DNA of 64,000 nt from Trichothermofontia sichuanensis B231 (lineage in GTDB: Bacteria > Cyanobacteriota > Cyanobacteriia > B231). Below the pieces are notes generated by a model. That model made no database searches and was not told the DNA's origin. It saw nothing but the letters and a program-made list of their open reading frames with translations. Positions 3,358 through 55,573 of the stretch are shown here, piece by piece. The stretch's first letter is position 1; every line of letters begins with the position of its first letter. The position numbers and the translations under genes were made by a program. The stretch spans positions 4,235,741 through 4,299,740 of the forward strand of contig NZ_CP110848.1 of NCBI RefSeq assembly GCF_026240635.1. The letters run 5' to 3'.

Positions 3358-4290
3358 CTAAGCCGTTTTCTGGGCAATCAGCGTGCGGTGACGGGGGCTG
3401 TTCAAGGTAACCGTTGGGGCCTGGAAACCCGCAGCCACGATCGCCGCTTCCAAATCCAGGTTGAAGTACTCATCCAAATAGGGTTCGGTGCTTTTGAGGA
3501 GGGTGAACACGTAGGGAGGCAAGCTGGCAAATACATCCGATCGCGGATTCATATCCATAATGGCCATATAGCCGCCTGGACGGACTAACCGATAGGCTTC
3601 TTGCAGAAGGGCGATCGCAGCTTGGGCGGGCAATTCATGGAAAACGAGACAGGCGGAGACTAAATCATAGGACGCGGCAGGGAGTCCCGTGGCCTCAGCG
3701 GCGGCGTGAATCCAGGTGATCGGGCGAGGACGCTTCTGGGTTTGGTGGTGGGCGATCGCCAGGAAATAGGGTGAGAGATCGATACCGGTTAGCTCCGCCT
3801 CCGGGTAGGTGTCCTGAAGGGTGACGGTACTCATGCCGACCCCGCAGCCCAGATCGACGATCGTGCGGGGGGTCGGCATTTGGGCGGTTAGGACTTGGTG
3901 ATAACTCTGGCGCAAACGGGCATCCCCCGTTGCCCCTGCTTCGGGCCAAATGCGGGCATGGACGGCACGGGCCGCAACTTCCACTTCCATCGCTGGTCGC
4001 CAGCCCAGGTTGCCTTCGTCGTAGGCATGGAATGAGGTTAGATAATAGTCGGGATAGGCGAGATCAGGGTTTTGAACGGCTGCCAAAGCAGTAGCCCAGG
4101 TTCCATCCCCCAGCGCTTGCAATGCCTGCACGTGTTGCCGCCAGGGGACCCCAATCTCTTCCGCCCGCTTGACCATCATGCTGCGGGCCTGGTGTTTAGC
4201 CAATTGGGCGATCGGCTTAATGGCTAACACGGTATTAATCAGGGTGGTGGTGAGACCAGCAGGCGCAGCGGTGGCAGCAGACATAGGCAT
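3358..4290 (-). CDS. Class I SAM-dependent methyltransferase
   Basis: A 310-residue methyltransferase. The C-terminal two thirds carry the SAM fold: motif I is IVDLGCGVGMSTVTL, followed by an acidic strand end in LTGIDLSPYFL, then ASYDLVSACLVFHELP and the LVRPGGYMAIMDMNP strand typical of small-molecule methyltransferases (UbiE/MenG-like group). The N-terminal ~130 residues are helical with no catalytic motif seen. It is transcribed away from chlP, 419 bp from it, and its substrate cannot be read from the sequence. A role in lipid or quinone methylation is possible but only inferred. Confidence 0.85.
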   Translation of the reverse strand: MPMSAATAAPAGLTTTLINTVLAIKPIAQLAKHQARSMMVKRAEEIGVPWRQHVQALQALGDGTWATALAAVQNPDLAYPDYYLTSFHAYDEGNLGWRPAMEVEVAARAVHARIWPEAGATGDARLRQSYHQVLTAQMPTPRTIVDLGCGVGMSTVTLQDTYPEAELTGIDLSPYFLAIAHHQTQKRPRPITWIHAAAEATGLPAASYDLVSACLVFHELPAQAAIALLQEAYRLVRPGGYMAIMDMNPRSDVFASLPPYVFTLLKSTEPYLDEYFNLDLEAAIVAAGFQAPTVTLNSPRHRTLIAQKTA

Positions 4291-19671: not shown

Positions 19672-20757
19672 GTGAGAATTACCTTCATTTTGCGAACACT
19701 TGATCTAACCGGTGGCCTACGAGTAATTTCTATCTACGCTAGGGAACTACAAAAGCGTGGGCATGATGTATTGGTGATCTCATTTGACCCGCGTATGCTG
19801 AATCTACGCGCCTGCCTCAAACAGTTACTTAGTTGGCAGGGGAATCCGTTCAAGAAACTGGCCTTACCCCCCTCCCATCTTAATCTTGAGGAGATCAATT
19901 GCCGCCTGATTCGTCATCCACCCCCTCTCTTACCTACCGATGTCCCTGAGGGTGATCTGGTCATTGCAACCTGGTGGGAAACGGCTGAGTGGGTTGCTAA
20001 GCTCCCCAAACGCAAGGGTAAAAAAGTGTATTTTGTCCAGAACCATGAAGTTTACGATTATTTACCCTATGAACGAGCTAGGGCAACCTATCGATTACCG
20101 CTCCGTAAAGTTACGGTGTCTCGTTGGCTAGTCAATGTGATGCGGGATGAGTATGGTGATCAGCAGGTTGCCCTTGTCCCTAATAGTGTTGATACCAAAT
20201 TATTTTATGCACCCCCTCGGTCAAGGAATAGCATTCCAACGGTTGGAATGCTCTATGCGGAGGTCTATTGGAAGGGATGTGATCTGAGTATTCAGGCATT
20301 TACGATCGCCGCCCAGCGAATTCCTAATCTGCGCCTGATTGCCTTTGGCACCACTGATCCCTTGCCGAAATTGCCCTTACCGGCTAATACGCAATACTTC
20401 AAATCTCCCCCACAAGCTGCGCTCAGGGAGATATACAGCCAATGTGACGTTTGGCTGTTTGGCAGTCGTACAGAAGGCTTTGGTTTACCCATCTTAGAAG
20501 CAATGGCCTGTCGTACCCCTGTGATTGCAACACCGGCAGGCGCAGCACCAGAGCTTTTGGCTGATGGCACAGGTATCCTCGTTCCTTTAGAAGATCCCCA
20601 GGCAATGGCTGAGGCAATTATCACCCTCATGCAGTGTCCGCCATCAGATTGGCAACAAATGTCCGATCGCGCCTATGCTAAAGCAACTAGCTATACTTGG
20701 CAAGACGCAACCGATCGCTTCGAGGCTATCCTTTATGAAATTTTCCACGCTGATTGA
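19672..20757 (+). CDS. Family GT4 glycosyltransferase
   Basis: A 361-residue GT-B glycosyltransferase. The N-terminus (ITFILRTLDLTGGLRVISIYARELQKRGHDV, in part) is the glycine-rich acceptor loop; the donor side has VALVPNSVDTKLF and the GSRTEGFGLPILEAMACRTPVI block with its E-x7-E pair. The start is GTG 19672; the nearby ATG at 19657 runs into a stop. The insertion sequence ends 51 bp upstream, so its original promoter may have been displaced or replaced. It converges with the next glycosyltransferase. Confidence 0.9.
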   Translation: MRITFILRTLDLTGGLRVISIYARELQKRGHDVLVISFDPRMLNLRACLKQLLSWQGNPFKKLALPPSHLNLEEINCRLIRHPPPLLPTDVPEGDLVIATWWETAEWVAKLPKRKGKKVYFVQNHEVYDYLPYERARATYRLPLRKVTVSRWLVNVMRDEYGDQQVALVPNSVDTKLFYAPPRSRNSIPTVGMLYAEVYWKGCDLSIQAFTIAAQRIPNLRLIAFGTTDPLPKLPLPANTQYFKSPPQAALREIYSQCDVWLFGSRTEGFGLPILEAMACRTPVIATPAGAAPELLADGTGILVPLEDPQAMAEAIITLMQCPPSDWQQMSDRAYAKATSYTWQDATDRFEAILYEIFHAD

Positions 20758-20767
20758 GCGCTGATTA

Positions 20768-20803
20768 AGTATTTAGCTTATTTGAGCTTATTTGAGCTTA
20801 TTT
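20768..20803. repeat. Ten-base tandem repeat between convergent glycosyltransferases
   Basis: AGCTTATTTG is repeated three times head to tail, with a partial fourth unit before it, in the 48-bp gap between the two stop codons. No hairpin forms from it. Confidence 0.7.
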
Positions 20804-20805
20804 GA

Positions 20806-22113
20806 CTAAGCTGGTGACTCTCTACCTGCTAATACTTCCTGATATAAATCCAGGATTTTCTCAATCTTTCGTTCCCAAGTGAATTCACTAGCTCGTTCTA
20901 TAGCACTAATAGACATTTGATAGCGTAAGTCGGGATTTTCGAGAAGTTGCTCCAAATGCTGTTTTAACTGGGAAATCACGTATTCTCTGGATCTTGGTTC
21001 AATCCTAAATCCAGTTTTTTCGGTAACGTATTCACCAATTCCACCATTGTTTACGACAATACAGGGTAAACCCGATGCCATTGCTTCTAAGACAACAGCT
21101 CCACCAAATTCCCTAACAGAGGGAAAGCAGAAAATATCCGAACTTTGATAATAATTGCGAGTTTCTGCTTGAGGGACCCATCCAACAAATTCCACTTGCT
21201 CAGTTAGGTTAAGTGCTTTAACTAAGTTCTCCAAATGGATGCGTTCAGAGCCATCTCCTACAATTCTTAAGCAAACCCTAGCCTTAAAGTTAGGCGCTAA
21301 CCGATCCAGTGCAGCAATAATCATATCCGCGCCTTTATACGGAACAAGACGCCCAACAAATAAGAGGATAATACGATCATCTTCGCTAGACTTGAGCTTG
21401 ACTTGATTATGCTCCTTCTGTTCAAGTAGGTCCGATCTCAGAAAATCAGAGGTAATACCATTCTCATAAAACAGACAGATACGATCGTCACTGATAGCGA
21501 AAAGGTCTTTGAGTAAACTCAATGTATAGCTTGAGCCAGCCAAGACCTTGGTTGCCTTTTTATAGGTTCTGTGATAACCAGGAATTATCCAGCGGCCCAC
21601 TAGCCTGAGAAAATTGAAATATGCAAATTCCTCCATTGCGGTTTTACGAAAACCGGTAGGAAAAGGAACCCCTCCATTCACTGGACCAATCAGGAAAGGT
21701 GTATGCTGGCAAGCTGCGATCAGTGTAACCGGATAACGGGGCATCATTGGGGTGATCGCGTGAACAATATCATAGGATTCTAGCGCTACAGCCTCCTTAA
21801 AGTACCTAAAAACTTTCCAGTCAAATTCGGCATAGATAGGATATGTGAGGGTATTATGTAGAGGCCATATTATCTTATTTCCAATTCTACTTATTCGTGA
21901 TACGACCTGATAATAGTGAGCCATAAAATGGCTTTCGGAAATATAGATGATGTCTTGGTCAGCGTGACGTTTACTCAGGGCCGCTCGATTTCGCTCATGG
22001 GTTACCAGTGTTGTCTGAACAAATTTACTAATTCCCTGGTAATAACGATACCCTACTAGCGGCACCGATGCCCACTCAGGATTACATTGTTCAATAATTA
22101 ACAGGATTTTCAT
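20806..22113 (-). CDS. Family GT4 glycosyltransferase
   Basis: A 435-residue GT-B glycosyltransferase, presumably building cell-surface polysaccharide. The donor domain shows LLFVGRLVPYKGADMIIAAL, RIVGDGSERIHLENL, VEFVGWVPQ and VREFGGAVVLEAMASGLPCIV. Acceptor specificity is not readable. The coding sequence is noticeably richer in A and T than gmd, fcl and uvrA, which together with the neighbouring membrane polymerase suggests a separately acquired block. Start ATG 22113. Confidence 0.88.
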   Translation of the reverse strand: MKILLIIEQCNPEWASVPLVGYRYYQGISKFVQTTLVTHERNRAALSKRHADQDIIYISESHFMAHYYQVVSRISRIGNKIIWPLHNTLTYPIYAEFDWKVFRYFKEAVALESYDIVHAITPMMPRYPVTLIAACQHTPFLIGPVNGGVPFPTGFRKTAMEEFAYFNFLRLVGRWIIPGYHRTYKKATKVLAGSSYTLSLLKDLFAISDDRICLFYENGITSDFLRSDLLEQKEHNQVKLKSSEDDRIILLFVGRLVPYKGADMIIAALDRLAPNFKARVCLRIVGDGSERIHLENLVKALNLTEQVEFVGWVPQAETRNYYQSSDIFCFPSVREFGGAVVLEAMASGLPCIVVNNGGIGEYVTEKTGFRIEPRSREYVISQLKQHLEQLLENPDLRYQMSISAIERASEFTWERKIEKILDLYQEVLAGRESPA

Positions 22114-22764
22114 AGTGATTTACAATCCATAATTGTTAATAATAGCAGAAATCTGGGATATTAAACATCGTTTAATTGTTTGATAGCTACTAATATCTGA
22201 CAAATTTGTCATCAGGTGATATTCAGAGTACATCAATCTGGCGACGGTTATGCAGCCTAACCCAAGTAGATCGGCAAAATCAGACTTTTGTTTTCCAAAC
22301 TGGGCTAGGTAAACCTGTTGAATTTTAGTAACAAAAATTTATATCAATTTTAGGATGCTTATATTCTTTTATTCTACAATTTAATTTAAAGATATCTAGG
22401 ATATGTAAATGGCTCTTCTGGGATTTTGGGGTAAACAGTATCAGCAACTACAAATAAACGATCGGAAACGTTGAGTTTATGGTGGGGGCGCGTAGCGCCC
22501 CCACCATAAACTCAGGAGAGCCATGTAAATAACAGATATAAAATCTTGTTCTTCTGAGTTTATGGTTGGGATGCGTAGCGCCTCACCATAAAGTCGATGT
22601 CTCAGCTCATGGATTGATAGTCCTGATACTGGGTGCGCCAAGATCCCAGAAGAGCTTAAAATCTCAGATTTGAATCTTAAGATATTGCAGCTTTTCTGCT
22701 TAAATTGAGGATTAAGGTCATACTTTAATTTATTAGAAAATTGCAAACTTACTTTGTTTGAATC
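22114..22764. repeat. AT-rich intergenic region with a MITE-like palindromic element
   Basis: An element spans about 22409-22655. Its outer ends GCTCTTCTGGGAT and ATCCCAGAAGAGC are inverted repeats. Within it, 22473-22513 is a perfect 19-bp palindrome (arms beginning GAGTTTATGGTGG) around a three-base GTA loop, and a degraded relative of that hairpin is at 22557-22597. No protein in this stretch is convincing; an 89-codon frame on the minus strand runs across the palindromes and was rejected. Confidence 0.7.
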
Positions 22765-24243
22765 ATGTCTAAGAAAAAGATTCTCAACATTTTACTATAT
22801 CTGTATGGTTCTATATTTATATTTGCCTTTGTTTTACGAGGAGTATTAAATCCACTAATTTTCTTGATTTTATATGGATGGATATTAACGGTCATCTACT
22901 TCTTCAGAAAATATCCACCTCAACGGGTGCTAATTGTGGCCTTTATTGTAGCTACCCTTTTCTTGCCAGAATATTCATTATCAATTCGTGCTAATTTAGC
23001 AATTACAAAAACAACTGCAACTGCCTTAGGAGCCTTTTTAGCGACTTTGATCTTCTATCCAAATCGCCTATTAACCTTAAGGCCGGGTTGGTGTGATTTG
23101 CCGATGTTGATCTGGATGATTGGAACGATCCCATCCCAGATTCTAAATGGTTTAAGCCCTATAACACCTGTTATTCAGCATTGGTTAATTTGGGGCGCTC
23201 CATATCTACTCGGTCGTATTTTTATCAGAACTTTAGAGGATCTAAAGCAGTTGGCGATCGCTATTTTCTTAAGTGGTGTACTCTATGCTCCTCTTTGTTT
23301 AGTAGAGAATTTAAAGACACCCAACCTCCATCTCTGGGTCTATGGTTTTGCTGCTCGTAGCTCAGGTTATGAGCAGACTTTCAGATGGGGAGGGTATCGG
23401 CCAACAGTTTTTATGGAACATGGTCTAGCTGTTGGCATGTGGATGATGGCTGCAACGTTAATTGCCATCTGGCTATGGCAGACAAAAGCGATTCCTAAAA
23501 AGTTATGGAGTTATCCTACCAAGCTGATTGTATTTTGGTTGATTTTTGCTTTTATCCAAACTCGTTCAACAGGCGCATATCTATATTGTATTGTTGGTCT
23601 CTTAACCTTCATTTTTGCTAAATGGTTTCGCACGGCTTTGCCCATATTTCTTGTTGCATTAATATCGACTTCTTATGTATCCCTCGGTGCAGTTGGCAAG
23701 CTTTATAAAATTCCACAAGTGCGAGCTTTTATGGATCAAGAAGTTCAAGAAGAAAATGAGATAGATGCCCGTCAAGGCTCTTTTCGTTTTCGGATGCGAA
23801 ACGAGGAAGTTTTGTCTGAGCATGCACGTAAGAGATTTGTTTTTGGGTGGGGAGGATCGGGGCGCAACCGGGTTTTTGACGAGGAAGGGCGAGACATAAC
23901 AGTAACTGATAGTATTTGGATTATTGAGTTTGGCACTCGTGGGATTCTTGGGTTAGCAGGGTTTTTCCTGTCGTTAATCCTACCTGCGATCGGTTTCATC
24001 TGGCGTTATCCCCCTCGAACCTGGCAATTGCCTAAGGTAGCAGCGGCAGCGAGTTTAGCAACGGTATTGATTTTGTATACTTGGGATAGTGCGCTTAATG
24101 CGTTTCCCAATCCTGTTTATATTGTAGCTAGTGGCGGGTTGGCAACTGTCGCGATGAAGTCGAGGGAAGCGTTAGATGATCGCCGATCGCGCTCACCCGT
24201 ACCCCAAAAACGGTTACTTCCCATGCGAGCTTATCGGAATTGA
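22765..24243 (+). CDS. O-antigen ligase/polymerase-like integral membrane protein
   Basis: A 492-residue protein with about ten to twelve hydrophobic segments and a long polar loop near residues 325-375 (DQEVQEENEIDARQGSFRFRMRNE). This layout, with an Arg-rich periplasmic loop and the WGGSGRNRVF region before the last helices, fits the Wzy/WaaL polymerase-ligase group. It would polymerise or attach polysaccharide units outside the inner membrane. The N-terminal third is strongly AT-rich compared with flanking housekeeping genes. The polymerase-versus-ligase choice cannot be made from sequence. Confidence 0.75.
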   Translation: MSKKKILNILLYLYGSIFIFAFVLRGVLNPLIFLILYGWILTVIYFFRKYPPQRVLIVAFIVATLFLPEYSLSIRANLAITKTTATALGAFLATLIFYPNRLLTLRPGWCDLPMLIWMIGTIPSQILNGLSPITPVIQHWLIWGAPYLLGRIFIRTLEDLKQLAIAIFLSGVLYAPLCLVENLKTPNLHLWVYGFAARSSGYEQTFRWGGYRPTVFMEHGLAVGMWMMAATLIAIWLWQTKAIPKKLWSYPTKLIVFWLIFAFIQTRSTGAYLYCIVGLLTFIFAKWFRTALPIFLVALISTSYVSLGAVGKLYKIPQVRAFMDQEVQEENEIDARQGSFRFRMRNEEVLSEHARKRFVFGWGGSGRNRVFDEEGRDITVTDSIWIIEFGTRGILGLAGFFLSLILPAIGFIWRYPPRTWQLPKVAAAASLATVLILYTWDSALNAFPNPVYIVASGGLATVAMKSREALDDRRSRSPVPQKRLLPMRAYRN

Positions 24244-47470: not shown

Positions 47471-48500
47471 TACAGCCTTTCCCTTCCTGATGAGGTACAA
47501 TACCAATCAAAGACTTGTATGCCAAGGTAGCACGCCATGAAGCCCTATGCCATTGAATTTCGTCAGAAGATTATTGATGTCTATGAATCTGAGCCGATCT
47601 CGCAAAGAAACTTAGCAGAACGCTTTTGTGTTGCCAAGAGCTTTGTCCAGAAATTATTGAAACAACGTCGTGAAACTGGCTCAATCGCGCCCAAGATTCG
47701 GACCAAACAAACGCCAACTAAACTCAATGAGGAACAGTTGGCAGTGCTTGCCCGCATCCTGGAAGAACATAATGATGCCACCTTAGACGAGTTACGTCAA
47801 TTATTGCTAGACGAGACCGGTGTCAGCGTCAGCCGCTCGACCATTGACCGGATGCTCAAGAAACTGGCAATCACATTAAAAAAAACGCTCCATGCCGATG
47901 AAAAGGAGAGTGAAGCCGTCCAGGAAAAACGGTTCCAATTTTGGCAGTTAGTGCAAGGCATTCTCGCTCAAGACATGATTTCCATCGATGAATCTGGCAT
48001 TAACCTAGCCTTAACTCGTTGACGTGCCCGATCACCTAAAGGTAAACGTGCTCATGGTAAACGTCCTCAGAAGCGGGGTAAAAATGTGTCCGTGATTGGC
48101 GAATTGGCTTCCAGGGGATGATTACTCATGTTGCGGTGATGGGCAGCGTTGATAAGTTGACTTTTGCAGCCTTTATTGCCTGTAAGTTAGTGTCGAAACT
48201 ATGGGCCGGAGCTTGCGTCTTTGTTGATAATTGCTCCATTCATATTAATGAGGAGATTACCAAAATGATCACGGCGGCAGGTGCCCAGTTGATTTATTTA
48301 CCACCCTATTCACCTGATTGCTCACCCATTGAGAATTTCTGGTCTAAGATCAAGGCCATATTACGTGCGCTTCAGGCGCGTTCATATCCCGACCTTGCTG
48401 AGGCGCTTGAGACAGCTTTTAGTCAAGTTTCTGATGCGGATATTGAACACTGGTATACTCATTGTTGTTATTGTACCTCACCAGACTAGGAAATGCTGTA
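47471..48500 (+). mobile_element. IS630-family insertion sequence, internally frameshifted
   Basis: The ends TACAGCCTTTCCC (left) and, inverted, TACAGCATTTCC (right) share a further GATGAGGTACAATA / GGTGAGGTACAATA block. TA at both ends is the expected target duplication. It is inserted in the helicase-nuclease pseudogene just before the nuclease domain. The transposase reading frame is broken twice (stop at 48020-48022 and a shift near 48112), so this copy cannot move by itself. Confidence 0.88.
47537..48489 (+). pseudogene. IS630-family transposase, two frame breaks
   Basis: The first part (47537-48022) is the helix-turn-helix region (YAIEFRQKIIDVY, RNLAERFCVAKSFVQKLLKQ) and the first catalytic Asp in ISIDESGINL. 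Frame is lost at ALTR; the segment SPKGKRAHGKRPQKRGKNVSVI is readable in the next frame, and 48118-48489 continues with FVDNCSIH and YSPDCSPIENFWSKIK, the other Asp and Glu. All three DDE acids survive but no full product can be made without two recodings. Confidence 0.88.
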
Positions 48501-49149: not shown

Positions 49150-49938
49150 CTAACTCCCAAATCCGCCTAAGCTTGACTGGCTGAAGGCTGTTGCGCTCTG
49201 ACTGACACGCAGGGCTGACTGGGAGAATAGCTGGAAGGCTTGCTGAATTTCCTTGTGGCCATTGCCGGGGGTAAGAATCCACTCGTCGCGGATACCCATG
49301 TCGTGGAAAACCTGCCGGAAGTTGGTGGAGCCGCCATCATCGATACCCATCGCCGCAATGATGTGATTTTCTGCCCGTAGCATATCCTGGACGAGCGATC
49401 GCACGGTTTTCGCTGTCGCTCGTTGGGAGTGGGCATCAGCACCATCAGTGATTAAGAGGGTAATGGTCCGAACGGGGACGCCATTATCGGCAAATTCCTG
49501 GGCTTTGGCTAAGACGGTTCCTAATAACACCACGGTTTGATCGTAGAGGGGGGTTCCCTGGTTGGGATCATAGTTGTGGCTGTCCATCAGTCTTGCTTGG
49601 GTAACCGGGCAATAGGGGTAGAGGACGGTGCCGTTGAGATAGCGGTTGTGGATGAGGATGTTGTCTTTTTGGGCTGAGGATTGGAGGACATTGACGACGG
49701 TGTTATGGCCGGCACAAACGACCTGGGTATTGCCAGAAAAACGAATGGAACCAGAGTCGTCGGGCATGATGGTGACCAGAACGACTTCGCTGGCCGTTAC
49801 GTCATCGATCGCGATTCCTAAACCGGCTTGAATTTGGACACCGATATCGATGATATTCAGGGCTTGGAAGGAGGTGTTCGAGAGTAACCCTTCGTTTTGG
49901 GCGGATTGGAAGAGGTCGTTCAGGTTAGGGGTGGACAT
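49150..49938 (-). CDS. VWA-domain protein (TerY-like), last gene of the NAD/phospho-signalling set
   Basis: A 262-residue von Willebrand factor A protein. The metal-ion-dependent adhesion site is complete: DDSGS (DxSxS) in IMPDDSGSIRF, Thr in NQGTPLYDQ and TLLITDGADAH. It is the TerY component type found with a PP2C phosphatase and a kinase, both encoded upstream on the same strand. The C-terminus is Ser-rich (FSQSALRVSQSATAFSQSS). I start it at ATG 49938, eight bases after GGAG; the 26 further upstream codons run through a repeat and are not protein-like. Its partner is presumably the kinase/phosphatase pair. Confidence 0.85.
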   Translation of the reverse strand: MSTPNLNDLFQSAQNEGLLSNTSFQALNIIDIGVQIQAGLGIAIDDVTASEVVLVTIMPDDSGSIRFSGNTQVVCAGHNTVVNVLQSSAQKDNILIHNRYLNGTVLYPYCPVTQARLMDSHNYDPNQGTPLYDQTVVLLGTVLAKAQEFADNGVPVRTITLLITDGADAHSQRATAKTVRSLVQDMLRAENHIIAAMGIDDGGSTNFRQVFHDMGIRDEWILTPGNGHKEIQQAFQLFSQSALRVSQSATAFSQSSLGGFGS

Positions 49939-49981
49939 GGGTAAGCTCCTTATGCAAAAAAGTGCAACGTATCTTTCGGGA

Positions 49982-50056
49982 ACCACCAAGGCACTAAGGA
50001 CACCAAGGGTCACCAAGAGCTTGGTGTTTTCTTAGTGCTCTTGGTGTCTTGGTGGT
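49982..50056. repeat. CACCAAG-type inverted repeat between hydrolase and VWA genes
   Basis: ACCACCAAG (49982-49990) pairs with CTTGGTGGT (50048-50056) and several further CACCAAG/CTTGGTG blocks pair in between, giving a long imperfect hairpin. A related stretch (GTGTCTTGGTGTCTTTGTGG) lies at 55590-55610 at the other end of the island. It may process or attenuate the operon mRNA. Confidence 0.6.
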
Positions 50057-50077: not shown

Positions 50078-51124
50078 TTAGAGAGAAATTCCTGGCCAAG
50101 ACGCGATCGCATCCACCGACTGCACCAAATGCATCCCCGCGGCAGCAAACCGTTGAAACGCCTGATCTGCTTCCTGGCTAAAGTCCACAATACCGGGTAC
50201 TACAACGGGTGAAGTACAATCCTCCAGCAAATACACCTTTTCCGTAAGCGCCGGCTCTTGGCTTTGAATTTCCGTCAGCAGATCCGCGATTGTCCAGGCC
50301 ACACAATGACTTTTAGCCTGCCCAGCAATAATGACCACATCAAATTCCAATAGACGCTGAATAAACCGGGTATTCTTCTGCGCAATTGGACGACGATCAG
50401 GCCCTTCCAACACCTCTGGCCGTAGAACCGAATAATTTTCAGTTAAGGGATTACCTCCCTTAATTTCAAACCGAGTCTGGCTATGGCGGGCAATGTTATG
50501 GAAAAAACAGGCCTCCTCTACCGCTGAAACCAGAGCATGACCAATCCCTCCCAACATGGAATGATAGGGCCAGATCGTGAGGGGAAATTTACCGGCATCG
50601 GCGAGTTGTTGGACATAATGGAGAGCGTGTTGCTGGAGCGCCATATAGTTCCCTTGGGCGAGGCTATAGGCGATCGCCGGATTAACTTTCCAAATACCCG
50701 CCTTCACCTCATCCAGTTGAATCATCTGCATGGGGTTGGGATGTTCGCCCGCATCATTAACCCAAAAAACAGGATGAAAAATCTGGGTAGCAGTATGGGT
50801 ATCCATCGTGGAGGCAATTTCGGTAATGACTCCTAGATTGCGGTAGATGAATTCGCAAAGGCGGATATTATCCTCGATCGCACCGCGTCCTGATTTACCG
50901 CCCACAAACAGCTCAAATTCGGGGATACAAAAGGTGTTTTGCACATCGACCAGCATTAAACAAATGCGAGTTTTATCCTTGGCTGCGGGTTGGAGATGAT
51001 GCTGTTTAGCCCAGGCTTCAGCCGCTGCCGCTCGCTCTTGATAGGGAACCCGCCAGACTTCACCCACGCGATCGGCTTGAAAGTGTTGGGGAATAGGCAA
51101 TTGATTCAGTGCTGTTGTAGTCAT
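50078..51124 (-). CDS. Nicotinamidase-like cysteine hydrolase (isochorismatase superfamily)
   Basis: From ATG 51124 (GGAG nearby) it has 348 residues, longer than PncA (about 200). The catalytic Asp is in LMLVDVQNTFC, the metal region in ASTMDTHTATQIF (Asp and His), and the nucleophile Cys in AGQAKSHCVAWTIADLL. TIWPYHSMLGG corresponds to the WPxHC-like segment of nicotinamidases. It would deamidate nicotinamide or a related amide, so it fits beside the ADP-ribosyl hydrolase and NrtR. The long inserted segments mean the exact substrate is unproven. Confidence 0.8.
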   Translation of the reverse strand: MTTTALNQLPIPQHFQADRVGEVWRVPYQERAAAAEAWAKQHHLQPAAKDKTRICLMLVDVQNTFCIPEFELFVGGKSGRGAIEDNIRLCEFIYRNLGVITEIASTMDTHTATQIFHPVFWVNDAGEHPNPMQMIQLDEVKAGIWKVNPAIAYSLAQGNYMALQQHALHYVQQLADAGKFPLTIWPYHSMLGGIGHALVSAVEEACFFHNIARHSQTRFEIKGGNPLTENYSVLRPEVLEGPDRRPIAQKNTRFIQRLLEFDVVIIAGQAKSHCVAWTIADLLTEIQSQEPALTEKVYLLEDCTSPVVVPGIVDFSQEADQAFQRFAAAGMHLVQSVDAIASWPGISL

Positions 51125-51175
51125 AATTTTCAGACTCCAAATAATCAATTTAGATAAGCAGAAACAGGATGTTAC

Positions 51176-51670
51176 TTAAGTGATTTGCAACTTTTGAATT
51201 GTTCTGGCCCGAACGACATATAGACCATCCTTAGCAGGAAGTAGCATACAACTGCTATCAACAAAGGGTTCGGTTTCGGGGAAGTGCTGAGTAACCACCA
51301 ACTGTCCCGATTGGGGTTCAATACGCACGATTCCCTCATCTGTCGCCACAAAAAGAAAATGATGAACGGCACAGTGGCCCTGTAATCGCGTTAACCAGTG
51401 GGTTTCGTGGCCTGCTAAGACCGTCGTTGCGACCAAAGTGCCGTCCGCGTTAATGACCGCCACATAGTTTTGAATTTTGCCCTGGCTTTGGACAGCCCAG
51501 AATAGCCAAGCGTAGTCACGACTAAAGGTACAGGCCACATCAAGCAGTTGACCGTGCCAGGGGGGTAATTGGACGCGATCGTTGAGGCCCGATCGCTCAG
51601 TATTAAACACAAAAGCCGTATTCAGATTCCCAGCCTGATATAAACCTAACCCAAATTTTTCGCCAACCTA
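51176..51670 (-). pseudogene. C-terminal continuation of the kinase gene beyond an in-frame TAG
   Basis: In the same frame as the kinase, the codons directly after the TAG (51668-51670) read VGEKFGLGLYQAGNLNTAFVF and continue without break for 164 codons to the next stop at 51176. The sequence is beta-rich (VAVINADGTLVATTVL, FLFVATDEGIVRIEPQSGQL) and continues the repetitive sensor-like domain that begins before the stop. The nonsense codon most simply replaces TGG (Trp). A separate product could start at ATG 51610, but it would lack the first strands. Alternatives are readthrough or a sequencing error. Confidence 0.75.
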
Positions 51671-53056
51671 AATCTGCGTTTGATTATGCAGAACATCACC
51701 AATATAAACAGGCGTTAAGGGATGATTGCGATACAGTTGTCCCTGATGTAGCCAATAATAGTGATCGGCATTTGCCGCGAAACCAAGGTATTGCCGATCA
51801 CAGACTAGACAACTCGGATCAACAGCCAACCGAATAGGCATCTGATCGGGCGTCAGGATAATCACCTGCCCATCTTTAGCAACCAGGGTGGATCGCCCTT
51901 GAATCTGGAAGTGTAGACGAGGATCAAGGTCGCTGTGCAGGACGATCGTGCCTGCTTCCCGCCGAAAAGCCCCTGCTTCGTGGTAAAGCCAGCCGAGTTG
52001 GCGATTTTGGACCGTTGCCAGGAGAATAATCCCCGGCGTTGCAAATATAGACTCAGCACGGACTATGCCTTGTACCCTTGTTGGCTGCGAGGGAATAGGG
52101 GAACGCTGGGTACACTGGGGACACTGGGAACGGGCGTGTTCTAATCCACAGGTTAGGCAAGTTGTCCATTGCAGGTTATCCAGGAGCGATCGTGGCATTT
52201 CCCCCCGTAAATCTTGCTCAAATACCTGATAGAAATAGTGCAAGAGACTATCGGGTAAAATATCTGGTTTTAGGGCAGGTTTAGGATAACGTACCTGGGG
52301 ATGGAAGATACTAATGCGATGGAGCGATCGGGCAGCATGGGGAATGGGTGGATCGGATTTACCCGGCTTATAAACGCCACCATAGGGATGAACAAATAAG
52401 AAACATTGCATTAACATAACGGCAAAAGCATACCAATCGGATTCCGGAGTATAGGATTTTTGCAATTGGGGAACATTCGCTTGGGCATCGCATAAACAGG
52501 GATCGATAAAGCGATCAGTAAAGACGTGACACAGAAATGCACCAAACTGGAAGGAATCAGTATCAATAATATAGGCTTGATCATTCTTTATGAGGACATT
52601 GAGATCATTAAAATCACCAATGATAATTCCCAATTGATGGAGCGTATGAACGGTGCGATGCAAATCCTGAAGAATGGTCGTGACTTGTTGAGCCGAAATA
52701 CCCGTTTGACGAAAGCTCCGTTCGCTATAGTGCAAGAGGAGATTGGCCGGGGTAAGGAGGGACATGGTATACCCAAGGATGTTTTGCCCAGCGCGATCGT
52801 TCGCTAAATCCTGGGGACAGATAACGCGATCGGGTAAATTCTGAGGAAACTGGCGTAGCTTTTGCTGGTGTTCCTGTAGACGTAGCTGCGCGGCTTGTTG
52901 CAATTGGGGAGAGGCTTGATAATCAGGATGATCGGGCGGCTTAAAGAGCTTGAGGGCTTGACCTTTGCCCAGATCGTAAATATCCGCTTCGCCGCCTTTG
53001 CCAATCAGTTGACTGGGTTTAAGTCGCAGGCGTTTATGGTTAAGGTAAACATCCAT
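51668..53056 (-). CDS. Atypical protein kinase with zinc ribbon (TerY-P kinase type), truncated by TAG
   Basis: 462 residues to the TAG. The N-terminal kinase fold has the Gly loop LIGKGGEADIY, Lys in QALKLFKPP, a catalytic loop GIIIGDFNDLNVLI (Asp and Asn kept, HRD altered) and the metal Asp in YIIDTDSF. Residues about 310-330 are a zinc ribbon (CLTCGLEHARSQCPQC), followed by a beta-rich sensor domain cut off mid-way. This architecture matches the kinase of TerY-phosphorylation triads. It overlaps the ADP-ribosylglycohydrolase gene by 17 bp, so the two are coupled. With the stop suppressed the protein would have 626 residues. Confidence 0.85.
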   Translation of the reverse strand: MDVYLNHKRLRLKPSQLIGKGGEADIYDLGKGQALKLFKPPDHPDYQASPQLQQAAQLRLQEHQQKLRQFPQNLPDRVICPQDLANDRAGQNILGYTMSLLTPANLLLHYSERSFRQTGISAQQVTTILQDLHRTVHTLHQLGIIIGDFNDLNVLIKNDQAYIIDTDSFQFGAFLCHVFTDRFIDPCLCDAQANVPQLQKSYTPESDWYAFAVMLMQCFLFVHPYGGVYKPGKSDPPIPHAARSLHRISIFHPQVRYPKPALKPDILPDSLLHYFYQVFEQDLRGEMPRSLLDNLQWTTCLTCGLEHARSQCPQCTQRSPIPSQPTRVQGIVRAESIFATPGIILLATVQNRQLGWLYHEAGAFRREAGTIVLHSDLDPRLHFQIQGRSTLVAKDGQVIILTPDQMPIRLAVDPSCLVCDRQYLGFAANADHYYWLHQGQLYRNHPLTPVYIGDVLHNQTQI

Positions 53057-53816
53057 AGGTGTGCATAAACTGCTCAGTGACGGTGCGGAGACGGGGGTCT
53101 AAACGGGTTAACACTTCAGTGGCAATGGGTGCTGGGACTCCCCCATAAAAGGCTTGGGCGATTCCTCCAGTAATGCAGGCAATCGTGTCACTATCGCCCC
53201 CGATCGACACCGCATTACGAATGGCATCTTCAAAATCGGTTGATTCCAGAAAGGCAATAATGGCCTGGGGGACTGACCCCTGACAGGACACATCAAAGCG
53301 ATAGGACGGACGGATTTCAGCTAAGGTACGGTTCAAGTCATACCCAAAAGTTGATTCAACATAGGTTTTAATCTCAGCTTTGGAGTGTCCGATTCGAGCG
53401 AGGAAAATTGCTGCTGCCGTTGCCTGGGCACCGCGAATGCCATCGGGATGGTTGTGGGTGACGGCTGCACTCGCCATTGCCATTTGTAAGACCGTATCCA
53501 GGGCATCCCCAGCATAGGCAACCGGACTAACGCGCATGGCTGAACCATTGTCCCAACTGTTATAGGGACTCCGACGCTTAAGGGTTGCCCAGAGCGTGAA
53601 ATTCTTGCCATAGCCCGCTAATGGAAACCAGGCGTAATAGCGGTGCAAATTATCCACATAATCCCCCTGGTTAAGCAAGGTATCCGCGATCGCAACCGTC
53701 AACACGGTATCATCGGTAAAATGACTTCGGCGACTAAACAGGGTAAAATCCTTACTTTTGCAATTTTGCCATTCATAAATCGAACCAATCATGTCACCCG
53801 CGATCGCGCCTAACAT
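53040..53816 (-). CDS. ADP-ribosylglycohydrolase (DraG/ARH family)
   Basis: A 258-residue hydrolase removing ADP-ribose from proteins or other acceptors. Both binuclear metal motifs are intact: SHFTDDTVLTVAIADTL near the start and SIGGDSDTIACITGGIAQA near the end; GAIAGDMIGS is the usual opening and NGSAMRVSPVAYA the substrate loop. It overlaps the phosphatase gene by 7 bp and the kinase gene by 17 bp, the middle of a tightly packed operon. With the nicotinamidase-like enzyme and NrtR it brings NAD/ADP-ribose turnover into this signalling set. The target is unknown. Confidence 0.92.
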   Translation of the reverse strand: MLGAIAGDMIGSIYEWQNCKSKDFTLFSRRSHFTDDTVLTVAIADTLLNQGDYVDNLHRYYAWFPLAGYGKNFTLWATLKRRSPYNSWDNGSAMRVSPVAYAGDALDTVLQMAMASAAVTHNHPDGIRGAQATAAAIFLARIGHSKAEIKTYVESTFGYDLNRTLAEIRPSYRFDVSCQGSVPQAIIAFLESTDFEDAIRNAVSIGGDSDTIACITGGIAQAFYGGVPAPIATEVLTRLDPRLRTVTEQFMHTYGCLP

Positions 53817-54643
53817 AGGGGTACCTCCCGTGATTTTCTTCTCATGAGAACTAGGGTCGTATCATCTTCTAGCAGTCCACTCTGCCGTTCTAGCACCTGA
53901 GTTTGCCAGTTGGGTTGAATCACTTCCCGATTACACCGCACCAAATAACGACGCACCTGATCAGGATTCCGAAAATAGCGATCGTCCTGCCAAAATGGCG
54001 TAAACATCTCTGGCATGAGATCAACATCGGCAAGCAATGGATCAAGCGTTTTCGCTAAATCCTGTACCCCATCCGTGCCAATCAAGAGGGTGTTAACCGT
54101 AGCCGTCGATCGCGGGTAGACTGTGAACTGGAGATCCGCCATTGAAAAATGGTTGGGAAATAACCCATAGGCCAGGTAGGGAGGCCGATTATCCGCGATC
54201 GTTCCTTGCAGCAACACCTCCTCATTGAGCATCGCCACCCCATCCCCCAGGGAGAAAATTACCGTGATTTCGGCAGTGACAATTACGCCGACGATCGTGA
54301 ATAAAAAATAGTCCCAAATCACCGTTTCTAGCGCAGATCCCAAGCCTGTCGCCACCTGCCGGATCTGGTTCAGAAGCTCCTGTTGCAGTTCGGGCCAAAA
54401 GTCAGGGTCTTGCAGTTTCGGTTGGCCGCGTTCGCACTGGCGATCGAGACTAGCCACAACCCATCTCGCCCCCAACTGGGCACCCACTTCACTGTGGGGA
54501 GAACTCCCACACCCATCACACACCACCGCGATCGTGCGATCGAGCTTGGCTTGGACGGCGTAGGCATCCTGGTTATTGCGGCCAAGCCGCCGATGTTCCC
54601 GTCCGATGACTGACCCAGCGGCGATGTCAAAGACTGTGTTCAT
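53810..54643 (-). CDS. PP2C-family serine/threonine phosphatase, first gene of the operon
   Basis: 277 residues. Metal-binding motifs of PP2C appear in order: GREHRRLGRNNQDAYAV, AVVCDGCGSSPHSEVGA, LLIGTDGVQDL and GLLEDDTTLVLM. It would reverse phosphorylation by the kinase two genes downstream and control the VWA protein. ATG 54643 is preceded by only five bases before the palindromic operator at 54648-54668, so repressor binding there should block its transcription or translation start directly. Confidence 0.92.
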   Translation of the reverse strand: MNTVFDIAAGSVIGREHRRLGRNNQDAYAVQAKLDRTIAVVCDGCGSSPHSEVGAQLGARWVVASLDRQCERGQPKLQDPDFWPELQQELLNQIRQVATGLGSALETVIWDYFLFTIVGVIVTAEITVIFSLGDGVAMLNEEVLLQGTIADNRPPYLAYGLFPNHFSMADLQFTVYPRSTATVNTLLIGTDGVQDLAKTLDPLLADVDLMPEMFTPFWQDDRYFRNPDQVRRYLVRCNREVIQPNWQTQVLERQSGLLEDDTTLVLMRRKSREVPLC

Positions 54644-54647
54644 GGAC

Positions 54648-54692
54648 TTAGTGTTGAGAATACACTAAATATAGGTGTAAAGACTACACTAT
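54648..54692. promoter_or_regulatory. Tandem 21-bp palindromes, probable NrtR operator
   Basis: Operator 1 (54648-54668) is TTAGTGT, seven bases, ACACTAA: a perfect palindrome. Operator 2 (54672-54692) has the same 7-7-7 geometry, TAGGTGT and ACACTAT, keeping GTGT/ACAC. Centres are 24 bp apart. It lies between the phosphatase operon and the divergent NrtR-like gene. A 21-bp palindromic site fits NrtR-family repressors; the binding is inferred. Confidence 0.7.
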
Positions 54693-54779
54693 GTCAAGGC
54701 CGGATTTTGAATTGCAGCGTTTTACAATGGAGTCAGCCATAAAGTGTCAGCCATAGAGTCAGCCTCCACCCCTGCCGCC

Positions 54780-54866
54780 ATGATTGCCGTCCCCCACTAC
54801 ATCAGCCCCCAGGACTATCTCGACCTCGAACGCCACAGCTACAGTGATAGCCGTCATAAATATCCG
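54780..54866 (+). pseudogene. N-terminal fragment of a Uma2 (DUF820) gene
   Basis: ATG 54780 begins IAVPHYISPQDYLDLERHS followed by YSDSRHKY, a typical Uma2 N-terminus, and then homology stops abruptly at about 54866, 18 bases before the NrtR start. It is a relic of a longer gene, probably cut when the regulator region was joined here. Confidence 0.7.
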
Positions 54867-54883
54867 ATACCTTTGTGGTTGCG

Positions 54884-55573
54884 ATGCCCCATACCTACCT
54901 CTATCCCCGACCGGCCCTGACCGTTGACTGTGTGGTGTTTGGGCTAGATGACGAGGATCTGAAAGTGATCTTGATTCAACGGGATTTACCGCCTTTTTCT
55001 GGTCAGTGGGCGCTTCCCGGTGGCTTTGTGCGGCTAGAGGAAACCCTGGATGCGGCGGCCCGGCGCGAGTTACAGGAGGAAACAGGACTGGAGGACGTTT
55101 TTCTGGAACAGTTTTATACCTTTGGCAGTCTCGATCGCGATCCGCGGGAGCGGGTGGTGAGTGTGGCCTACTACGGCCTGGTCAATTTGCGTGATTATCA
55201 GATCCAGGCTACTACGGATGCGCGGGATACGGCCTGGTTCCCGGTGCAGCAGTTACCCAATCTGCCATTTGACCATAATCAAATTGTGGCAATGGCCTAC
55301 GATCGTCTGCGCACCAAAGTTCGTTATGAACCGATTGGCTTTGAACTCTTACCGGAAAAATTCACCCTCACCCAACTGCAAACTCTTTACGAAAAAGTCC
55401 TTGGCCAACCCTTAGATAAACGCAACTTCCGCAAAAAGATTCTGAAAATGGGCCTGCTCATTGAACTAGACGAAGTGGAAAAAAACGTCCCCCACCGGGC
55501 CGCCCGCCTCTACCAATTTGATCAGCAAAAATATCAACATCTCAAACAATCCGGCTTTAATTTTGAGCTTTAA
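54884..55573 (+). CDS. NrtR-type Nudix transcriptional regulator
   Basis: 230 residues. The N-terminal Nudix domain senses or hydrolyses ADP-ribose-type ligands; its Nudix box is complete ([17 protein letters not shown] then QEETGL). The C-terminal winged helix ([26 protein letters not shown], in part, then MGLLIEL) is the NrtR DNA-binding domain. NrtR proteins repress NAD salvage and ADP-ribose genes and are released by ADP-ribose. It is transcribed away from the phosphatase-ADP-ribosylglycohydrolase operon, sharing the palindromic operators. ATG 54884 is preferred over GTG 54875; no good Shine-Dalgarno is visible. Retained catalytic Glu residues mean enzyme activity is possible. Confidence 0.88.

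Follow-up and report, generated by a model that had tools for sequence, protein, structure and literature searches.

The 64,000-nucleotide stretch of Trichothermofontia sichuanensis B231 DNA analyzed here (the window) carries a gene for a PP2C-family protein phosphatase and a divergent gene for an NrtR-type regulator, with two palindromic sites between them. The locus raises the question of which protein recognizes these sites, which of the two genes it controls, and what signal it obeys. Based on site sequence and spacing, promoter embedding, conservation, co-occurrence, and the recognition helix of the regulator, all of which were computed, we infer repression, its ligand, and a physiological role, and we consider it highly probable that tandem NrtR operators repress the PP2C operon until a nucleotide ligand, likely ADP-ribose, induces it.

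The proximal site, operator 1 (positions 54648 to 54668), reads TTAGTGT-TGAGAAT-ACACTAA and is a perfect inverted repeat of 7-bp arms around a 7-bp spacer (7-N7-7), as the initial annotation had described. The distal site, operator 2 (54672 to 54692), reads TAGGTGT-AAAGACT-ACACTAT, an imperfect inverted repeat with GTGT/ACAC cores and the same N7 spacing; it was also correctly annotated as lying 24 bp further, measured start to start, and a 3-bp gap (54669 to 54671) separates the two. Operator 1 does adjoin the PP2C start codon (leftward from 54643), but the intervening distance, given as 5 bp, is 4 bases (54644 to 54647). On the other side, 182 bp separate the end of operator 2 from a possible GTG start of nrtR (54875), and 191 bp separate it from the likelier ATG (54884).

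Such repeats could arise by chance or represent an RNA hairpin or terminator to which no protein binds. When repeats of any sequence are counted, the window has 16 perfect 7-N7-7 inverted repeats, compared with 3.75 in mononucleotide shuffles, and the pattern with up to three mismatches was found twice in the 64 kb where 1.42 occurrences were expected. Because such repeats and near matches are not unusual in the window, the palindrome by itself carries little weight. The exact sequence TTAGTGT-N7-ACACTAA occurs once in the 4.44-Mb genome, and none of 20,000 shuffles yielded two GTGT-N7-ACAC sites within the 240-bp intergenic region. Additionally, our search found no terminator-like site, and the predicted transcript begins downstream of operator 2.

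We regard conservation, as judged by sequence comparison, as the decisive evidence for the sites, above the palindrome itself. We fetched 80 loci (1.1 Mb) by NrtR protein similarity, without using the DNA motif in the search, from cyanobacteria, planctomycetes, verrucomicrobia, myxobacteria, Bacteroidota, and others. In these loci, the counts of which include closely related genomes, AGTGT-N7-ACACT occurs 55 times, and spacers of 0 to 6 and 8 to 15 give 0 to 2 occurrences each. In the 300 bp that precede nrtR, there are 62 occurrences of GTGT-N7-ACAC (45 loci), compared with at most 6 for other spacers and at most 2 for ten control half-sites in the same test. The consensus operator over the loci is CTTAGTGT-N7-ACACTAAG. 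Barring artifacts in the alignments, this spacer-specific conservation rules out a chance palindrome, and with the N7 spacing and half-site alone conserved over great distances, a fortuitous repeat or hairpin is an extremely improbable explanation. Recurrence of the arrangement across distant bacterial phyla argues for genuine control, albeit of a type already known; the operator motif may already be on record in the NrtR literature or in RegPrecise.

A PP2C query of 291 genomes of the class returned 44 positive genomes, 41 of which also encode this NrtR (P = 2e-29, uncorrected for phylogeny). Besides the window's own, 29 cyanobacterial PP2C loci were examined; a site lies within 260 bp upstream of PP2C in 27 of them, and 25 carry a pair. 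Phylogenetic footprinting near orthologous clusters had been named as a test of the palindrome, and the 80 NrtR loci and 29 PP2C loci together bear it out. The two PP2C loci without a site are L103, from a genome with no match to this NrtR, and L114 (genome G008), which lacks an upstream site even though NrtR is encoded elsewhere in the genome. Genome G110 has PP2C, no NrtR match, and no intact site. In G068 and G087, nrtR is distant from PP2C (about 0.9 Mb and 2.1 Mb, respectively), yet the twin sites remain at PP2C, which argues for control in trans. The spacing of twin sites varies among loci (22 to 31, 37, and 52 to 61 bp), which does not support strict helical phasing or point to cooperative binding along one face of the helix. 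Locus L109 (genome G005) has a second twin operator at 3479 to 3521, with its own TTGACA, before a kinase gene apart from PP2C and the ADP-ribosylglycohydrolase (ARH) gene, and this duplication is a natural test of the regulon. We rejected a genome-wide regulon in B231 because the site model, which was built with both window sites and so scores them partly by construction, matches these two sites alone at E values up to 10. The only other exact copies of AGTGT-N7-ACACT in the genome are two, both inside open reading frames (ORFs).

The regulator gene (54884 to 55573, plus strand, with the alternative GTG start at 54875) encodes the N-terminal Nudix domain (PF00293, 77.5 bits; cutoff, 21.1) and the C-terminal winged helix (PF21906, 102.9 bits; cutoff, 27) of the NrtR family, and further family traits found here are the N7 palindromic operator by the target genes and a link to genes of NAD metabolism. 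Among solved structures, phmmer placed BtAraR nearest (210.8 bits, versus 126.5 for SoNrtR). In the crystal structure of BtAraR with the operator GTGT-TACTTTT-ACAC, residues K179, R180, N181, and K184 read GTGT, and K204 and R205 contact the minor groove (PMC4666351). The window protein has the recognition helix DKRNFRK, identical to D178 to K184 of BtAraR; the contacts K179, R180, N181, K184, and R205 are all kept, and K204 is replaced by His. One search peptide for the 80 loci contained DKRNFRK, so the conservation of this helix and of the Nudix box among those loci is partly built in; the clean test is the unbiased set of 21 NrtRs collected through PP2C, all of which have DKRNFR and 19 of which have Lys at position 184. 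The conserved palindrome and the BtAraR recognition residues support the neighboring regulator as the protein that acts here, and the twin sites are very probably its operators.

We consider it very unlikely that the operators belong to a different regulator with nrtR as a mere neighbor. Divergent neighbors do not always regulate each other, and L114 lacks a site despite the NrtR in its genome. Against this, the sites track the NrtR subfamily through cyanobacteria, planctomycetes, verrucomicrobia, myxobacteria, and others even where the target genes are unlike, and the recognition helix matches that of the solved GTGT-N7-ACAC complex. The B231 genome also encodes a second, classical-looking NrtR (G000:C1:3560497-3561195; L006 1150-1926) that follows a nucleotidyltransferase gene resembling NMN adenylyltransferase. 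This paralogue has a degenerate Nudix box and a different recognition helix without K179, R180, and K184, and no site of the GTGT-N7-ACAC type was found nearby.

Binding by the adjacent NrtR would act chiefly on the PP2C promoter. We predict a leftward promoter TTGACA-18-TATATT (54697 to 54668), with the −35 element at 54692 to 54697 and the −10 element at 54668 to 54673, both on the minus strand, matching 11 of 12 consensus bases. Operator 2 occupies the 18-bp spacer, and operator 1 starts at the last base of the −10 element and lies over the predicted transcription start and leader. In relatives, where the −35 position and the TAxxxT of the −10 element are conserved, the arrangement is TTGACA-TAGTGT-N7-ACAC-TATxxT, and the spacer measures 17 bp. 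TTGAC precedes GTGT by 8 bp at 23 noncyanobacterial and 44 cyanobacterial oriented sites (counts that include closely related genomes), a sharp peak at a single position. The distal site filling the predicted PP2C promoter spacer, conserved in cyanobacteria and other phyla, is new here. A protein bound to an operator inside a promoter should obstruct RNA polymerase, which makes repression the natural interpretation.

With site 2 in a conserved promoter spacer and site 1 over the start, both would mainly serve the PP2C operon. The initial annotation had the second site facing nrtR, which is at odds with its conserved placement inside the leftward promoter. As for the accompanying proposal that one protein could control both directions, promoter embedding supports it on the PP2C side, and on the nrtR side it is plausible in relatives and uncertain here. 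Specifically, control of nrtR is plausible where the gene starts within about 10 to 100 bp of the sites, as in many relatives; NrtR may limit its own gene in this genome, but the case is uncertain and weaker because nrtR lies ∼190 bp from the operators. We found no clear nrtR promoter in the window. A short ORF between the operators and nrtR (54780 to 54920, plus strand; MIAVPHYISPQDYLDLERHS...) resembles the N terminus of a Uma2-type protein, had no Pfam match at such a length, and is perhaps a remnant that displaced nrtR from the operators.

The operon itself is encoded on the minus strand. The gene for the PP2C-family phosphatase (53810 to 54643; PF13672, E = 8.9e-21) comes first and is followed by that for an ADP-ribosylglycohydrolase family protein (53040 to 53816; PF03747, E = 2e-36). 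Next is a protein-kinase-like gene (51176 to 53056), which is an uninterrupted ORF of about 620 codons in relatives. Here, a lone in-frame stop (51668 to 51670, after residue 462) divides it into an N-terminal part (51668 to 53056; weak Pkinase match below the Pfam cutoff) and a C-terminal part in the same frame (51176 to 51610), and this stop is either a genuine nonsense change or a sequencing error. A nicotinamidase-like protein of the isochorismatase superfamily (50078 to 51148) matched PncA structures weakly in a profile comparison (E = 4e-4) and gave an NCBIfam match to PRK11609 below the cutoff (E = 0.0024); its residues D68, K230, and C282 are invariant by alignment, and we take them as candidates for the Asp/Lys/Cys triad of nicotinamidases. 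The last product (49150 to 50016) had no Pfam match and is called vWA-like by motifs only (invariant DxSxS, T, and TDG; model pLDDT, 66). Together, these proteins are predicted to remove and recycle ADP-ribose. We detected no ADP-ribosyltransferase among the operon proteins scanned, and a PADLOC scan for defense systems gave weak matches only. Next to the far end of the cluster (47537 to 48489) is a transposase-like ORF pair, IS630-type by eye and apparently interrupted. Elsewhere in the window, positions 20000 to 24000 have a GC content of 0.42, compared with about 0.54 around them; the ORFs there resemble those of glycosyltransferases and membrane proteins, and the segment may be an acquired polysaccharide cluster.

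In other phyla, the genes linked to the motif include those for NAPRT, NadE, nicotinamidase/PncA-like proteins, PnuC, Prs, Tpt1/KptA, and ADP-ribosylglycohydrolases; this set suggests that NAD breakdown provides the signal. Based on analogy with the family, we favor ADP-ribose as the probable inducer. In the binding pocket, R98 of SoNrtR, an ADP-ribose contact, is kept as Arg here and in 78 of 80 homologues. SoNrtR Lys76 and Asn43, which hold the α-phosphate of ADP-ribose, are replaced by Glu and Leu in the window protein, so the ligand could differ from ADP-ribose. The AraR residues Gly89, Phe36, and Leu67, which belong to a pocket closed to nucleotides, correspond to Arg, Leu, and Glu.

A less likely but appreciable possibility is that the adjacent NrtR binds the sites and responds to another nucleotide or sugar, such as phosphorylated ADP-ribose, NAD, or a pentose. 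The nearest solved structure, BtAraR, is arabinose responsive, two phosphate contacts of SoNrtR are missing, and ligands within the NrtR family are varied (PMC4666351). However, the associated genes in the various phyla serve NAD salvage and ADP-ribose turnover rather than pentose use, Arg stands where AraR has Gly89, and the intact Nudix box is expected for a nucleoside-diphosphate ligand. We retain ADP-ribose as the preferred inducer.

The window protein and every one of the 21 unbiased relatives retain an intact Nudix box, GX5EX7REUXEEXGU; in SoNrtR, BtAraR, and the NrtR paralogue of this genome, the box is degenerate. An impaired Nudix signature is usual in characterized NrtR and AraR proteins, though not a family criterion, and its absence here separates this protein from them without excluding it from the family. 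Because the box is intact, the repressor might hydrolyze its own ligand, raising the question of whether a transcription factor is able to degrade the molecule that induces it. We tentatively propose, as a rather speculative idea, that in cyanobacteria and myxobacteria a bifunctional NrtR may both sense and hydrolyze ADP-ribose, which would make induction of the operon self-limiting and give a timer-like response when ADP-ribosylation is reversed.

The mechanism that we propose would operate as follows. Without inducer, one NrtR dimer would occupy each 21-bp site, and dimers between the −35 and −10 elements and over the start would exclude RNA polymerase from the PP2C operon. Breakdown of NAD, or removal of ADP-ribose from macromolecules, would raise the level of a nucleotide ligand, most likely ADP-ribose; its binding by the Nudix domain would move the winged helices out of register and turn the operon on. 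The products would then remove ADP-ribose and return nicotinamide to NAD salvage.

Known NrtR-family systems resemble this one in part. The operators of BtAraR in Bacteroides share the GTGT-N7-ACAC core, the 21-bp motif, and the tandem gap, the araR sites also being 3 bp apart (PMC4666351), and the protein shares the DKRNFRK stretch and the wing residue Arg205. The targets of BtAraR, however, are arabinose genes; its ligand is L-arabinose, held in a pocket that nucleotides cannot enter, and its Nudix box is degenerate (PMC4666351). The system described here has ADP-ribose/NAD targets, Arg in place of Gly89, and an intact box. The classical NrtRs of NAD metabolism (Shewanella, Synechocystis, and M. 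smegmatis) are likewise Nudix and winged-helix repressors of NAD genes, and the M. smegmatis palindrome, GTTTTCGA-N7-TCGAAAAC, has the same N7 spacer (PMC6800001). They differ in the half-site, the recognition helix (QGKSFRR in SoNrtR), and the impaired Nudix box, and genes for PP2C, the kinase, the vWA protein, and ADP-ribosylglycohydrolase are among the targets here. We also considered the radiation-induced arh genes of Arthrospira but rejected a connection, as those are different genes adjoining an XRE-type regulator.

A predicted ADP-ribose-removal module with PP2C and a kinase is now tied to a specific, widely conserved operator, so that a function thus far proposed from gene neighborhoods becomes testable, and the motif offers a means of listing regulon members in any genome. 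The closest proposal is that of systems centered on ADP-ribosylglycohydrolase (ARG), in which Nudix transcription factors are combined with phosphatases and chaperone-like vWA proteins; section 3.8 of PMC9503650 predicts that they reverse ADP-ribosylation in viral conflict. Common to both are an ADP-ribosylglycohydrolase, a phosphatase, a vWA protein (identified here by motifs), and a Nudix-HTH repressor that, in that section, is predicted to be induced by released ADP-ribose. Within section 3.8, the phosphatases are not PP2C and no operator is given. Compared with the systems described there, ours has PP2C, additional kinase-like and nicotinamidase-like genes, and related regulators on ordinary NAD salvage; because simple NAD-salvage operons of other phyla carry the same operator, the cluster is as likely to serve housekeeping or stress responses as defense.
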